This document shows positions 29,213 to 34,955 of a stretch of DNA of 64,000 bases, piece after piece. The position numbers and the translations under genes are program-made. The notes under the pieces are model-generated. The model made no database searches. It had not been told where the DNA came from and saw only the letters and a list, made by a program, of their open reading frames with translations. Numbering within the stretch: the first letter of the stretch is position 1; each line of letters opens with the position of its first letter. Location of the stretch: positions 347,377 to 411,376 of the forward strand of contig JANWWF010000001.1 in assembly GCA_025055755.1 (NCBI GenBank), read 5' to 3'. Source of the stretch: Candidatus Kapaibacterium sp. Lineage in GTDB: Bacteria > Bacteroidota > Ignavibacteria > Kapaibacteriales > NICIL-2.

Positions 29213-30958
29213 ATGTGTGAAATTACGTTGTCAAGTTATCGTTGGGTACTCCGTGTACAGCCTGATGAATCCATCGTCTCTACGCTCAGCAGCCAATTAG
29301 CCATCCCTCGCCCAATCGCGCGGGTGCTCGCCTCACGTGGGATGCAAACTCCGACGGAAGCGCAGCAATACTTTACCCCGCGATTGGACGATCTTCACGA
29401 TCCGTTTTTACTCCCGGATATGGAGCGGGCTGTCGAGCGCATAGAACAAGCTATTGCAGCAAAAGAGACGATTTGGGTTCACGGGGACTACGATGTGGAC
29501 GGCACCGCCTCGACAGCAATGCTGGTGGAGTTCCTCCGCTCTATCGGAGGGAAAGTGTGTTACTATATTCCAGAGCGTCTCACCGAAGGATATGGCATCT
29601 CTCGTCAAAGCATTCATGCTGCGATAACCGCTGGTGCACGAGTTCTCATCACTGTTGATTGCGGAATAACCAGCGTCGAGATGATCGAGTATGCCCGTGC
29701 TCAAGGCTTAGATGTTATCGTCTGCGATCATCATGAACCAGCTGAGGTGCTCCCCCCCGCTTATGCCATCCTCGATCCTTTAGTTCCTGACTGCCCTTAC
29801 CCCTTCAAGCATCTGGCGGCGTGTGGAGTCACATTCAAGCTTATCCAAGCACTTTGTATCCGCCGCAACATAGAAGAGGTTGCCTTCGACTATCTTGATT
29901 ACGTTGCTGTTGCTTCCGCTGCTGACATCGTCCCACTTATAGGGGAAAACCGCATTTTGGTTGCTCACGGTCTTCGTAAGCTCAACACCAATCCTCGGCC
30001 AGGCTTTCGTGGGTTAATCGATTGCACCGGGGGGGAATACGGAAGCATCACCACATCCAGTATCGTGTACGGGATCGCTCCCCGCATAAATGCAGCAGGG
30101 CGGTTGGGCGATGCACGCCGTGCTGTTGAAATGATGATGCAATCAGATCCAATCTTAGCCTTCCGCATTGCCCAATCACTTGACCATGACAATCGCAAAC
30201 GACGCACCCTCGACGAAATCACTTACGAACAAGCCCGCAAACAAGCTGAAGAAGTATTAGCAACCCAGTCGCGACGATCGTTGGTGTTGCACTCATCATC
30301 ATGGCATCCTGGGGTTATCGGTATTGTGGCATCGCGCTTGGTCGAAAAGTTCCATCTTCCGACTATTCTTCTCACCTCTGGTGACGATGGGATTGCAAAG
30401 GGTTCTGCACGGAGTATCCGCGATTTTGATATTCATGCTGCTCTCCGCCGATGCGAACCAATCCTCCTTGAGTACGGAGGACATAAACATGCAGCAGGTT
30501 TGGCACTGCGACTGGAAAATATCCCTCTTCTCCGTGACATGTTTGATAGCATAGCTCAAGAGTCTATTAGCGATGCGATGCTCGTACCTGAGCTCACAAT
30601 AGATGCTCCACTGGAATTGCCTGAACTTACGCCCAGCGTATTAGAAGTCCTCCCTCGCTTTGCGCCGTATGGGTTCAATAACACTAAGCCCTTGTTCATC
30701 GCTGATAATGTTCGACTTGTTGGGGGAATACGGCAAATGGGACGAAATCAAGTGCGTTTTCGCACGTTGCAATCAAACTTTGTCATTGATGCTGTCGCTA
30801 CTTTCAGTGCCGACAAAACTGCTATCCTGCAGCGATCTGCTTCGTTTGCCATGATATTCAGTATCGAGGAGGAGACCAAAGGAATTCCGCTCCTCCGCGT
30901 TCGAGATGTTCGCCCCTCTGATTCTAATGCGTCACAAGCACAATCGGATTGGAACTGA
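29213..30958 (+). CDS. recJ: Single-stranded-DNA-specific exonuclease RecJ
   Basis: RecJ degrades ssDNA 5' to 3' in recombination, mismatch and base-excision repair. The 581 residues contain the DHH-family motifs HGDYDVDGTASTAML, VDCGIT, CDHHEP and the DHHA1 motif GGHKHAAGL, plus SSWHPGVIGIVASRL. A C-terminal OB domain follows (GGIRQMGRNQVRFRTL). Length is normal. It heads a plus-strand group with the Dna2-like gene and ruvC, all recombination functions. Confidence 0.96.
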   Translation: MCEITLSSYRWVLRVQPDESIVSTLSSQLAIPRPIARVLASRGMQTPTEAQQYFTPRLDDLHDPFLLPDMERAVERIEQAIAAKETIWVHGDYDVDGTASTAMLVEFLRSIGGKVCYYIPERLTEGYGISRQSIHAAITAGARVLITVDCGITSVEMIEYARAQGLDVIVCDHHEPAEVLPPAYAILDPLVPDCPYPFKHLAACGVTFKLIQALCIRRNIEEVAFDYLDYVAVASAADIVPLIGENRILVAHGLRKLNTNPRPGFRGLIDCTGGEYGSITTSSIVYGIAPRINAAGRLGDARRAVEMMMQSDPILAFRIAQSLDHDNRKRRTLDEITYEQARKQAEEVLATQSRRSLVLHSSSWHPGVIGIVASRLVEKFHLPTILLTSGDDGIAKGSARSIRDFDIHAALRRCEPILLEYGGHKHAAGLALRLENIPLLRDMFDSIAQESISDAMLVPELTIDAPLELPELTPSVLEVLPRFAPYGFNNTKPLFIADNVRLVGGIRQMGRNQVRFRTLQSNFVIDAVATFSADKTAILQRSASFAMIFSIEEETKGIPLLRVRDVRPSDSNASQAQSDWN

Positions 30959-31042: not shown

Positions 31043-34000
31043 ATGGCACAGCGATTATCAGCAGAGGCAATAGACGACCTGCGGAAAGAGCTTGACCGTA
31101 TTGAGCGCGACATAGACACCCCACCGCTGGAGCTATGCCGCAGCTTGGATGACATCCTTCGAACATCCTACATTCTCGCAACCGAAGACGAACTCCAAAC
31201 ATTTGCCAGTTTCATTGCGCGCCAGCTGTATGTCCATCAGGCGCTTCGCGTACCCCCTTTACTGGCTGAGGCAATGGAGAGCTTGCGAGGATGGCTCCAC
31301 GCCATTCTCCGCGAACGTATTGAATATCCCCGCGAGCAATTGCTTCCGGCTATCAGAGCACTATCCTACTGGCTCGATTGGCATGAAAATCCTGCCCGCT
31401 TTGATGAAGGGCTCGTTTCATTTCCACACAAGCGGCATAGCTCCTTGGAAAATCTGGTCGAAGGGTGCATCCGTTTCATCATCACGGAGCGACAAAGCAT
31501 TCGAGGAAGCACCGGCGAAGAAATTCCAGTACTTGGTGGAATTGATGCCACAACTGAAAATCGGCTCTCTCTTCAGCTCCACGGACGGTGGCGTGCTCTT
31601 GCACAGCACGTGCGCACGGGAACAATACTTGCTATTGTCGGCGCATCAAGCGTCTCTCCTGGCATTCTTGCTTGTAGCGATAACACCCTCGTGACAATTG
31701 AGCCGGACTTCCTACTTGATGTTACCACTGTTGCGGAATGCTTTAGTGGAAGTGTCAATTCTCCTCTTTTTGCTCTCTGGCGGCTGCTCAAACCTCAGCA
31801 AATAAATGCAACTGCTATTGTAGGCACTGTTATCAATGCATGCTTTGATGAGCTATTAGTGCAACCAGAGCTCGATACGGCAGCAGCTATAAACCGTGCT
31901 CTTCGTGCCTGCTATCTGGATGTACTGGCGGCACTCAAATCGAAGGCACTAACGCTGGAGAGCTTGGAGCAAAGCGTGCGAGCACAGCTTGCCACCATCA
32001 AGACAGTTGTAGCATCCCTTGCAGGGCGTACAACAACCGAACCAACCTTCCTTGCACCATGGTATGGGATTCAAGGGCGACTGGATGTCCTCATTGAACA
32101 CCCTGAGGATGCAAGCTGCAAGAGCATTATTGAACTCAAAACCGGGACACCCCCAGCCAATCAATTCCTTGCAACATCAACGGGCAAACACATAGCTCTT
32201 GCAATGCGGCCGAGTCACGCAATGCAAATTGCAGGATATAACCTTCTCCTCGACGCAGCATTTCCACATCGTCATGGCACAAGCAGCATCTTATACTCCC
32301 AATCAGCAGACCAACCTCTCCGGAATGCACCTAACGACCACGAGCTGAAGGCAGACTTCCTTGGCATGCGCAACCGCATAATAGAGCTCTACTGGGCACT
32401 TGCACACCGACGCTTCCGCGCACTTGAACAGCTTATCACGTTCTGCGAAAACTTTTCTATTCCCCTCCACCAAGATGAGCTGTTGGCGTGGAAACAGCAA
32501 TGGCAACAATTGACCTTACAGGAGAAGCTCTACGTACAAGCATGGCTTGCATTTGCTTTCCATGAACTCATCACAGGACACATTGGGAACGCTCGTCGCC
32601 AAAGCGGATTTGCATCGCTGTGGCGCATGAGCATTGCCGAGAAGACCGAACAGCTCAGTGCACTTACCCACTTGTGCTATGATCCAGCAGCAAGCGATCT
32701 TGAGCGCGGCTACATTTGCTTTCGCTTTACCGACCGCACCCCGCAAGTACATCCATTCCGTCGCGGCGACATTGGCATTGTATATCCCCATGCAGCACTT
32801 GACCAGCACGGTGCGGTCCTTGGTCAAGTTTTCAAGTGCGCTATCCGCGCGTTGACAGCCGATAGGGTCACTGTTAGCCTTCGTAACAAACTTTTTGACC
32901 GTCGCCAATTTGAACAGTATAACTACTGGGCTCTCGACATGGACATGCTTTCCCTTGGTATCGAGAGCTTGGTACGCGGATGCGGCGATTTTGTCCGCCT
33001 TCCTTCCTCGCAACGACAGCGTATTCTTGGCACCATTCCACCCCAGACTACAAATCTTGAGATACCACGTCCAGAGCGCTTGACCGATACGCAATACGAC
33101 CTGCTCTGCAAAGCACTTTGCAGCTGCGATTATTTCTTGCTCGAAGGTCCTCCCGGAACTGGCAAGACCAGCACGATGCTTCGTGCCATCGTCGAGCACT
33201 TATTGACAACAACTGACGAAACAATCCTCTGCACAGCTTTAACCAATCGTGCAGTAGACGAGATATGCACTGCTCTGCAACACATCACATCTGGTGGGAC
33301 TCTCCTCCGTCTTGGCTCTACCGATACTACAGATCATCCTGACATCACTCTTGGCACAATGGCACAACACATGGACTTTGATCAGCTGGCATCAGTACTC
33401 GACCGAGCGCGTGTGGTTGTCGCAACCGTTCCCTACCTCAATGCGAACACTGCCTTGTTTGAGCTAAAACACTTTACCACTGCTATCATAGACGAAGCAT
33501 CCCAATTGTTGGAGCCAGCAGTATTGAGTATTGTCTCGCGCGTCCGTCGCTTCATCATGATTGGGGACGCCTGCCAGCTACCTGCGGTTGTCCAGCAGGA
33601 TGATCGTTTTTGCTCAGTTTCCCATGACCAGCTCGAAGCAATTGAGCTGCACCGATTAGACACCTCGCTCTTTGAGCGGCTGCTGCGTCTGGCAAAACGA
33701 AATCGCTGGGATTATGCCTGGGGACGCCTTGTCGAGCAAGGCCGCATGCACCGTTTGATTGCAGCATTCCCTGCCCGTGTGTTTTATGGCACCACTTTTC
33801 GCACGATCCATCCCTGGCAGGAAGACCCATCGCCAACTGTTCCCTATGCTGATCTCCCCCGATTTCTTCAGCATCGTCTCGTTTTCATCGATACCCCAAG
33901 CGAAGCACACACCGGTTACAACCACACAGAAGCCCACCTTGCTGCAGCATGCGCTACTGCTCTTGCAGCAGTTGCTACTCAACCTCTTGACCGTGCTATC

Positions 34001-34417
34001 GGCATCATCACCCCCTTTCGCAAGCAAATCCGAACAATTCTGGAGTACCTGCCGGAAACGTTAGCTCCATTCCTTACCATTGACACAGTCGAACGATTCC
34101 AGGGATCTGAACGCGATCACATCATCCTTTCTTGCTCAGTCAACGCATGGCATGAAATTCCCCTGATTGAATCGCAAGTTGTGCTCGATGGGCGGACAGT
34201 TGATCGTAAACTCAACGTTGCCCTTACGCGCGCACGGCATCAGCTCATCGTTATCGGTAACCGCGCGATATTAGAGCGCCGTCATAGCTATGCTGCATTG
34301 ATTGAAGAAATCAGTCGCAATGGCATCGTCATTTCTGCGGAAGATGCTCGTATGCAGCTCGAACTTCACGCTATCTTCTCGGCACGGAGCAACCACCATG
34401 CGCATCATCGGAATTGA
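31043..34417 (+). CDS. Dna2-like protein: Cas4-type nuclease fused to superfamily 1 helicase
   Basis: A 1124-residue protein. A PD-(D/E)XK nuclease of the Cas4/RecB type lies in the N-terminal half: GRLDVLIE (Asp near 348), IIELKTG (near 361-367) and HAMQIAGYNLLLD (near 391). The C-terminal half (from about 690) is an SF1B helicase: GPPGTGKTS (near 702), AIIDEASQLL, GDACQLPAV, IGIITPFRKQ, TVERFQGSERDHIIL and NVALTRARHQLIVIGN. This order is that of eukaryotic Dna2. The four cysteines that bind Fe-S in Dna2/Cas4 were not recognised. Likely role: processing flaps or resected ends; inferred from domains and from recJ (84 bases upstream) and ruvC (20-base overlap downstream). Confidence 0.88.
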   Translation: MAQRLSAEAIDDLRKELDRIERDIDTPPLELCRSLDDILRTSYILATEDELQTFASFIARQLYVHQALRVPPLLAEAMESLRGWLHAILRERIEYPREQLLPAIRALSYWLDWHENPARFDEGLVSFPHKRHSSLENLVEGCIRFIITERQSIRGSTGEEIPVLGGIDATTENRLSLQLHGRWRALAQHVRTGTILAIVGASSVSPGILACSDNTLVTIEPDFLLDVTTVAECFSGSVNSPLFALWRLLKPQQINATAIVGTVINACFDELLVQPELDTAAAINRALRACYLDVLAALKSKALTLESLEQSVRAQLATIKTVVASLAGRTTTEPTFLAPWYGIQGRLDVLIEHPEDASCKSIIELKTGTPPANQFLATSTGKHIALAMRPSHAMQIAGYNLLLDAAFPHRHGTSSILYSQSADQPLRNAPNDHELKADFLGMRNRIIELYWALAHRRFRALEQLITFCENFSIPLHQDELLAWKQQWQQLTLQEKLYVQAWLAFAFHELITGHIGNARRQSGFASLWRMSIAEKTEQLSALTHLCYDPAASDLERGYICFRFTDRTPQVHPFRRGDIGIVYPHAALDQHGAVLGQVFKCAIRALTADRVTVSLRNKLFDRRQFEQYNYWALDMDMLSLGIESLVRGCGDFVRLPSSQRQRILGTIPPQTTNLEIPRPERLTDTQYDLLCKALCSCDYFLLEGPPGTGKTSTMLRAIVEHLLTTTDETILCTALTNRAVDEICTALQHITSGGTLLRLGSTDTTDHPDITLGTMAQHMDFDQLASVLDRARVVVATVPYLNANTALFELKHFTTAIIDEASQLLEPAVLSIVSRVRRFIMIGDACQLPAVVQQDDRFCSVSHDQLEAIELHRLDTSLFERLLRLAKRNRWDYAWGRLVEQGRMHRLIAAFPARVFYGTTFRTIHPWQEDPSPTVPYADLPRFLQHRLVFIDTPSEAHTGYNHTEAHLAAACATALAAVATQPLDRAIGIITPFRKQIRTILEYLPETLAPFLTIDTVERFQGSERDHIILSCSVNAWHEIPLIESQVVLDGRTVDRKLNVALTRARHQLIVIGNRAILERRHSYAALIEEISRNGIVISAEDARMQLELHAIFSARSNHHAHHRN

Positions 34418-34955
34418 CCCGGGTTCTCTCATCTGTGGATATGGCGTTATCGACGTGAATGGTAACAGTCTCCGCCTTGTCGAGTATGGAGTAGTGGAAG
34501 CACAGCGTGTTGCACCCGAGCTTCCCGAGCGCTTAGACCATATCTACCGTCGTTTGACCGCAGTTGTCGAACGCACCAAGCCAAATGCTGCAGCACTGGA
34601 AGCGCTGTTCTATGCGCGAAACGTTCAATCGTTGCTCAAGCTTTCCCATGCACGGGGAGTGGCGATGCTCGTTCTTGCTCAACATCATCTTCCCATCACC
34701 GAGTATGCAGCACGCCTTATCAAACGAAGCATCACAGGCAAGGGGAATGCAACAAAAGAACAGGTATCATACATGGTCAAATCCCTCCTCTGTATTGAGG
34801 AGACACCAGAGTTTTTCGATGCTACCGATGCCTTGGCAGTCGCTTTGACCCATGCTCTTCGCACTGACATGCCCGTAGCTCAAAGAAAGCGCTCACCGGC
34901 AACCACATGGCGCCAGTTTATCGAAGAAAATCCACACCGGGTGCGGCGGGCTTAA
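34398..34955 (+). CDS. ruvC: Holliday junction endonuclease RuvC
   Basis: RuvC resolves Holliday junctions. The RNase H-like active site is intact: IIGIDPGS (Asp), ALEALFYARN (Glu) and FDATDALAVALTHA (two Asp). It is 185 residues from the ATG at 34398, which lies inside the end of the Dna2-like gene (20-base overlap), so translation may be coupled. A longer in-frame opening upstream is not conserved. The TAA stop shares four bases (TTAA) with the stop of the opposing Lon-like gene. RuvA and RuvB are not in the window. Confidence 0.95.
   Translation: MRIIGIDPGSLICGYGVIDVNGNSLRLVEYGVVEAQRVAPELPERLDHIYRRLTAVVERTKPNAAALEALFYARNVQSLLKLSHARGVAMLVLAQHHLPITEYAARLIKRSITGKGNATKEQVSYMVKSLLCIEETPEFFDATDALAVALTHALRTDMPVAQRKRSPATTWRQFIEENPHRVRRA

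Follow-up and report, generated by a model that had tools for sequence, protein, structure and literature searches.

The gene between recJ and ruvC in the window analysed here, a stretch of 64,000 nucleotides from Candidatus Kapaibacterium sp., raises the question of whether a nuclease-helicase of the Dna2 type can exist without iron-sulfur cluster cysteines, and what such an enzyme would do beside recombination genes. The gene (31043..34417; this and all other window coordinates are on the forward strand) is an open reading frame encoding a protein of 1124 aa. The first-pass annotation had taken it for a bacterial counterpart of Dna2 with a cluster-free nuclease domain. This reading was upheld, with DNA2 as the best match by both profile and structure and the cluster cysteines absent from the whole family alignment.

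Domain layout and similarity to eukaryotic DNA2

The placement of an N-terminal nuclease before a C-terminal helicase, as in Dna2, was borne out by Pfam, by an end-to-end profile alignment and by a structural match over the whole chain. Pfam Dna2 (PF08696) matched residues 171-325 with 34.4 bits against a curated cut-off of 22.4 (E=2.4e-8). Read off the comparison with DNA2, the chain would run from a helical N terminus through an OB-like region, the nuclease, a set of helices and a barrel-like region to the helicase. The N-terminal region (residues 1-140; 31043..31462), helical in the AlphaFold (AF2) model, is without identified counterpart, and the profile match to DNA2 begins at profile position 219. 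Residues ~142-219 (31466..31699) are strand-rich in the model and fall where DNA2 has its OB domain, as indicated by the Pfam Dna2 match and the whole-chain Foldseek match; by comparison with DNA2 they may form an OB-like fold. The PD-(D/E)XK nuclease core follows (residues 220-455; 31700..32407), in which the Cas4/RecB-type motifs claimed at first sight, GRLDVL (345-350), IIELKTG (362-368) and HAMQIAGY (392-399), were all found. Behind it are a helical segment (residues 456-540; 32408..32662; modelled helices 459-514) and a second strand-rich region (residues 540-635; 32663..32947; modelled strands 540-633), which takes the place of the DNA2/Upf1-type beta-barrel in a profile aligned to DNA2 throughout. 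The SF1B (Upf1/DNA2-type) helicase (residues 676-1098; 33068..34336), with Walker A GPPGTGKT (702-709) and DEASQ (817-821), is complete by Pfam AAA_11/AAA_12, as had been proposed.

In a single-sequence search (phmmer), mouse DNA2 was the top solved structure (E=3e-32), above UPF1. A full-length profile of 48 relatives, searched against solved structures, matched mouse DNA2 with E=1.5e-82 over profile positions 219-1107, while the next best match, SEN1 (2e-54), was confined to the helicase. Two checks suggested with the first-pass annotation, a profile search of the nuclease region and a structure prediction, pointed the same way. The nuclease-module profile had DNA2 as its sole significant match (E=1.8e-8), and the AlphaFold model of residues 150-545 (mean pLDDT 93.5) had Dna2 5ean as its best solved match in Foldseek (E=9.5e-12, TMq 0.64), with Cas4-family proteins, AdnAB and MGME1 ranking below. 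For the whole-protein model (pLDDT 90.7, pTM 0.91) the best Foldseek match was again 5ean (E=3.9e-48, TM 0.64/0.69, 1089 columns).

Since UPF1, SEN1 and IGHMBP2 are matched by the helicase as well, the protein could in principle be an Upf1/IGHMBP2-type helicase acting on RNA or RNA/DNA hybrids that recruited its nuclease separately and resembles DNA2 by convergence. However, the helicase alone scores higher with DNA2 (114 bits) than with UPF1/SEN1/IGHMBP2-type matches (84 bits), the nuclease domain is significant to DNA2 only, and the structural match to Dna2 spans the whole chain, which together make such an origin very improbable. The score for the IGHMBP2 family model TIGR00376 was 165.6 bits, below its cut-off of 348.9.

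Like eukaryotic DNA2 (mouse, PDB 5eaw/5ean/5eax), which is its best structural match and to which it aligns nearly end to end, the protein carries nuclease, strand-rich linker and SF1B helicase in this order on one chain, and RecB-type catalytic residues followed by the LRN motif. It differs from DNA2 in lacking the cluster cysteines, in its extra 140-aa helical N terminus, in the other helices that follow the nuclease core and in belonging to a family that is not ubiquitous. The resemblance thus covers every feature tested except the cluster criterion of canonical DNA2, and because the cluster cysteines are absent the protein is filed as Dna2-like and not as canonical DNA2.

Nuclease residues and the missing iron-sulfur cluster

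The residues of the nuclease site were compared in an alignment of 98 sequences, consisting of the window protein and 97 relatives. All 98 share D348, E364, K366, Q395 and Y399, and R443-N444 belong to the same core in the alignment to DNA2. This pattern of conservation is far beyond chance, and the invariance of the catalytic residues indicates that the nuclease is under constraint.

The cysteines gave the opposite picture. The first-pass annotation had seen none of the four Fe-S cysteines, and a CxxC...C motif after QxxxY was indeed found in none of the 98 sequences; nor does the Bacteroides finegoldii homologue carry the cluster motif. In DNA2, the stretch CKYCSQIGNC contains the three C-terminal cluster ligands, and in the full-length profile it aligns to a cysteine-free stretch. 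In its place, the helical segment of residues 456-540 has the conserved columns F504, E508, G515, G522, L526 and W527, of which all except G515 are near-invariant in the family. Neither of the two observations named beforehand as contrary to the Dna2 reading, four clustered cysteines or the loss of catalytic residues in close homologues, was encountered. The absence of the cluster cysteines is a family trait across Bacteroidota, beyond one gene.

A canonical Fe-S Dna2 might still hold its cluster by non-canonical, unaligned cysteines. C233, kept in 84 of the 98 sequences, lies three residues before the SSIRC cysteine that is the first cluster cysteine of DNA2, and the window protein has six cysteines in residues 200-540. 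But C233 is the only well conserved cysteine of the nuclease region, all others occurring in at most 31/98, and 14/98 sequences have one cysteine or none in residues 200-540, so that we consider this arrangement highly unlikely. The gene probably encodes a cluster-free nuclease-helicase of the Dna2 type.

It has been reported that the DNA2 cluster staples the N- and C-terminal extensions and supports a loop by which the channel of the active site becomes a tunnel, and that a crossover loop is present in lambda exonuclease and RecB, which do without a cluster (PMC4716839). In the Dna2-like family, the helices of residues 456-540, with their near-invariant positions, would probably take over the stapling.

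AddA- and AddB-like proteins are also encoded elsewhere in this genome; their best matches are AddA and AddB, with scores under the NCBIfam equivalog cut-offs. The AddB-like protein (L128:552-3926), ~16 kb upstream of the window, has the full staple (C804, C1101, C1104 and C1110). Since it keeps the four cysteines, the genome retains such clusters, and their absence is specific to the Dna2-like family. AddB and RecB share with this family a RecB-family nuclease linked to an SF1 helicase, and RecB is likewise without a cluster (PMC4716839). However, the helicase comes first and the nuclease last in AddB and RecB, and the host genome has its separate AddA- and AddB-like proteins, the latter with an intact staple. 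The presence of both proteins suggests that the Dna2-like enzyme adds to AddAB-type resection and does not replace AddAB.

Gene neighbourhood and distribution

The recombination genes noted on both sides were verified: recJ (29213..30958) by TIGR00644 and ruvC (34398..34955) by TIGR00228, both above cut-off. The former ends 84 bases before the Dna2-like gene, and the latter overlaps it by 20 bases, as had been stated. A survey of whether the order recJ-dna2-ruvC is kept in related genomes, also suggested earlier, supported the first linkage well beyond the genus and the second only within it. Throughout the genus, the gene immediately before the Dna2-like one, in the same orientation, is recJ, and this also holds for another genus of the family and for relatives from three other families of the order. 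MAGs of Kapabacteria, Ignavibacteria and Chloroherpeton have the same-strand pair as well, in many cases separated by -8 to +39 bases, so that the pair is conserved in several deep lineages. The pairing is thus old, and its retention at ~30% protein identity points to a shared process. The recJ linkage is missing in Saprospiraceae, whose loci have no conserved neighbour common to many of them, and in several families of the organism's own order; a joint role is therefore not universal. As neighbours, ruvC and lonC were found only within the genus, and the ruvC linkage, being genus-level, adds little. Further housekeeping neighbours are rsgA and nuo.

Rates of divergence differ along the locus. 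Between congeners the Dna2-like protein is ~55% identical, compared with ~77% for RecJ. The ruvC product is ~38-43% identical to its congeneric counterparts, compared with ~76-87% for those of the flanking recJ and lonC, which may reflect fast evolution or replacement.

The survey of distribution covered Bacteroidota. The Dna2-like gene was present in 39 of 41 close relatives, the two without it indicating that it is not indispensable there, and in 32 of 247 genomes sampled across the phylum. Among the matches listed, the nearest named ones were the Candidatus Kapabacteria MAGs KatS3mg039/040, and homologues occurred in named Saprospiraceae, Cytophagales, Flavobacterium, Marinilabilia, Ignavibacteria and Chloroherpeton records. 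Matches covering the nuclease were found in three of 72,556 plasmid records, all Bacteroidales (Prevotella, Phocaeicola and Bacteroides finegoldii), so that gut Bacteroides and Prevotella are among the carriers. The Bacteroides finegoldii homologue (L123:2972-6379) overlaps tatC by 26 bases, and its annotation goes no further than 'AAA domain-containing protein'; the family is uncharacterised. Haloarchaeal plasmid matches were considered as Fe-S Dna2 comparators and discarded as ~745-aa AAA helicases that match in the helicase only. A phage origin was likewise rejected: no viral-contig pattern matched, and a search of 50,697 phage records found nothing.

The patchy occurrence across the phylum (32/247) would also suit an anti-phage or restriction-type helicase-nuclease, as has been proposed for the bacterial enzyme Bad. 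The helicase region matches Mokosh MkoA (E=3e-54), and so does the nearest NCBIfam model, NF040671 PLuB_AAA (E=2e-57), which also matches the nuclease region, including that of 46 of 48 relatives. Yet the PLuB_AAA score is 194 bits, far under the curated cut-off of 999. Moreover, the neighbours recJ, ruvC, rsgA and nuo are housekeeping genes, the gene is near-universal in close relatives (39/41) with congeners keeping the same locus, and matches are absent from the phage records, while those covering the nuclease are nearly absent from the plasmid records (3/72,556). A defence function is accordingly regarded as unlikely, although somewhat less remote than the two alternatives discussed above.

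PLuB_AAA members were discarded as comparators, since none above cut-off was found in 296 genomes, and no paper on the PLuB_AAA system was found in the open-access literature. In the Bacteroides homologue the model matches one continuous stretch covering both nuclease and helicase (183-1129), which suggests a Dna2-like nature for the PLuB_AAA proteins too. A second AAA_12-type helicase of 1265 aa is encoded in the same genome as the window (L130:85-3882, contig C125); its C-terminal stretch resembles Vsr/DUF559 endonucleases by eye, and it is possibly a defence gene.

Related enzymes and a possible role

Among the papers found, one describes a characterised bacterial enzyme of this kind, Bad of Geobacillus stearothermophilus, a DNA2-like helicase-nuclease which translocates 5'-3', cuts ssDNA and prefers 5' flaps (PMC7430649). 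Unlike the Dna2-like family of the window gene, which lacks the cluster cysteines, Bad has an Fe-S cluster. Its Cys-to-Ala proteins were labile, and the cluster is described as important to the structural integrity of both DNA2 and Bad (PMC7430649). By its published description, Bad is further set apart by a central extra conserved domain restricted to Bad proteins, and its gene sits beside a methyltransferase (PMC7430649). DNA2-like enzymes were described as rare in bacteria, found in Geobacilli and Mycobacteria by a search for Fe-S-type nuclease motifs (PMC7430649); a cluster-free family would therefore have been missed.

Cas4-family proteins have the RecB-type nuclease fold and gave weak sequence and structure matches, but Cas4 has no helicase, and all Cas4 carry four cluster cysteines according to a published survey (PMC5704561), whereas the window gene has neither these cysteines nor a cas context. 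Membership in a CRISPR system, already doubted in the first-pass annotation, was rejected: no CRISPR-like array was found within 22000-45000 and no cas gene among the neighbours scanned.

The Dna2-like family was not described in the open-access papers found; most subscription journals lie outside these, and its novelty is unproven. What is known is the DNA2-type nuclease-helicase, and what appears to be new, from the sequences, is a natural family variant without the cluster cysteines.

From the homology to DNA2 and Bad, ssDNA with a free 5' end would thread into the nuclease tunnel, where the RecB-type site of D348, E364 and K366 would cut it, and the SF1B motor would move 5'-3'. With the iron staple gone, the helical segment behind the nuclease core may serve a structural role. 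RecJ is a 5'-3' ssDNA exonuclease, and the Dna2-like enzyme may act in the same step, alongside AddAB, by trimming the 5' ends or flaps of ssDNA that arise from a break, a stalled fork or an Okazaki junction. As a specific cellular role, 5' end or flap trimming with RecJ in recombinational repair or in Okazaki or fork processing, beside AddAB, is put forward tentatively, at slightly less than an even chance. The broader proposal is that a widespread Bacteroidota Dna2 family never had or has lost the staple, holds its tunnel by helices and constitutes with RecJ a Dna2-type pathway of 5'-end resection or flap removal beside AddAB; here we see the chances as evenly balanced.

If this proposal is true, the staple would be dispensable to the Dna2 fold, and the family would offer a natural test of cluster function. 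A cluster-free Dna2 family would then range across Bacteroidota, with Bacteroides and Prevotella among its carriers, and bacteria would possess a Dna2-RecJ route that has been overlooked owing to the use of an Fe-S motif as the search criterion.
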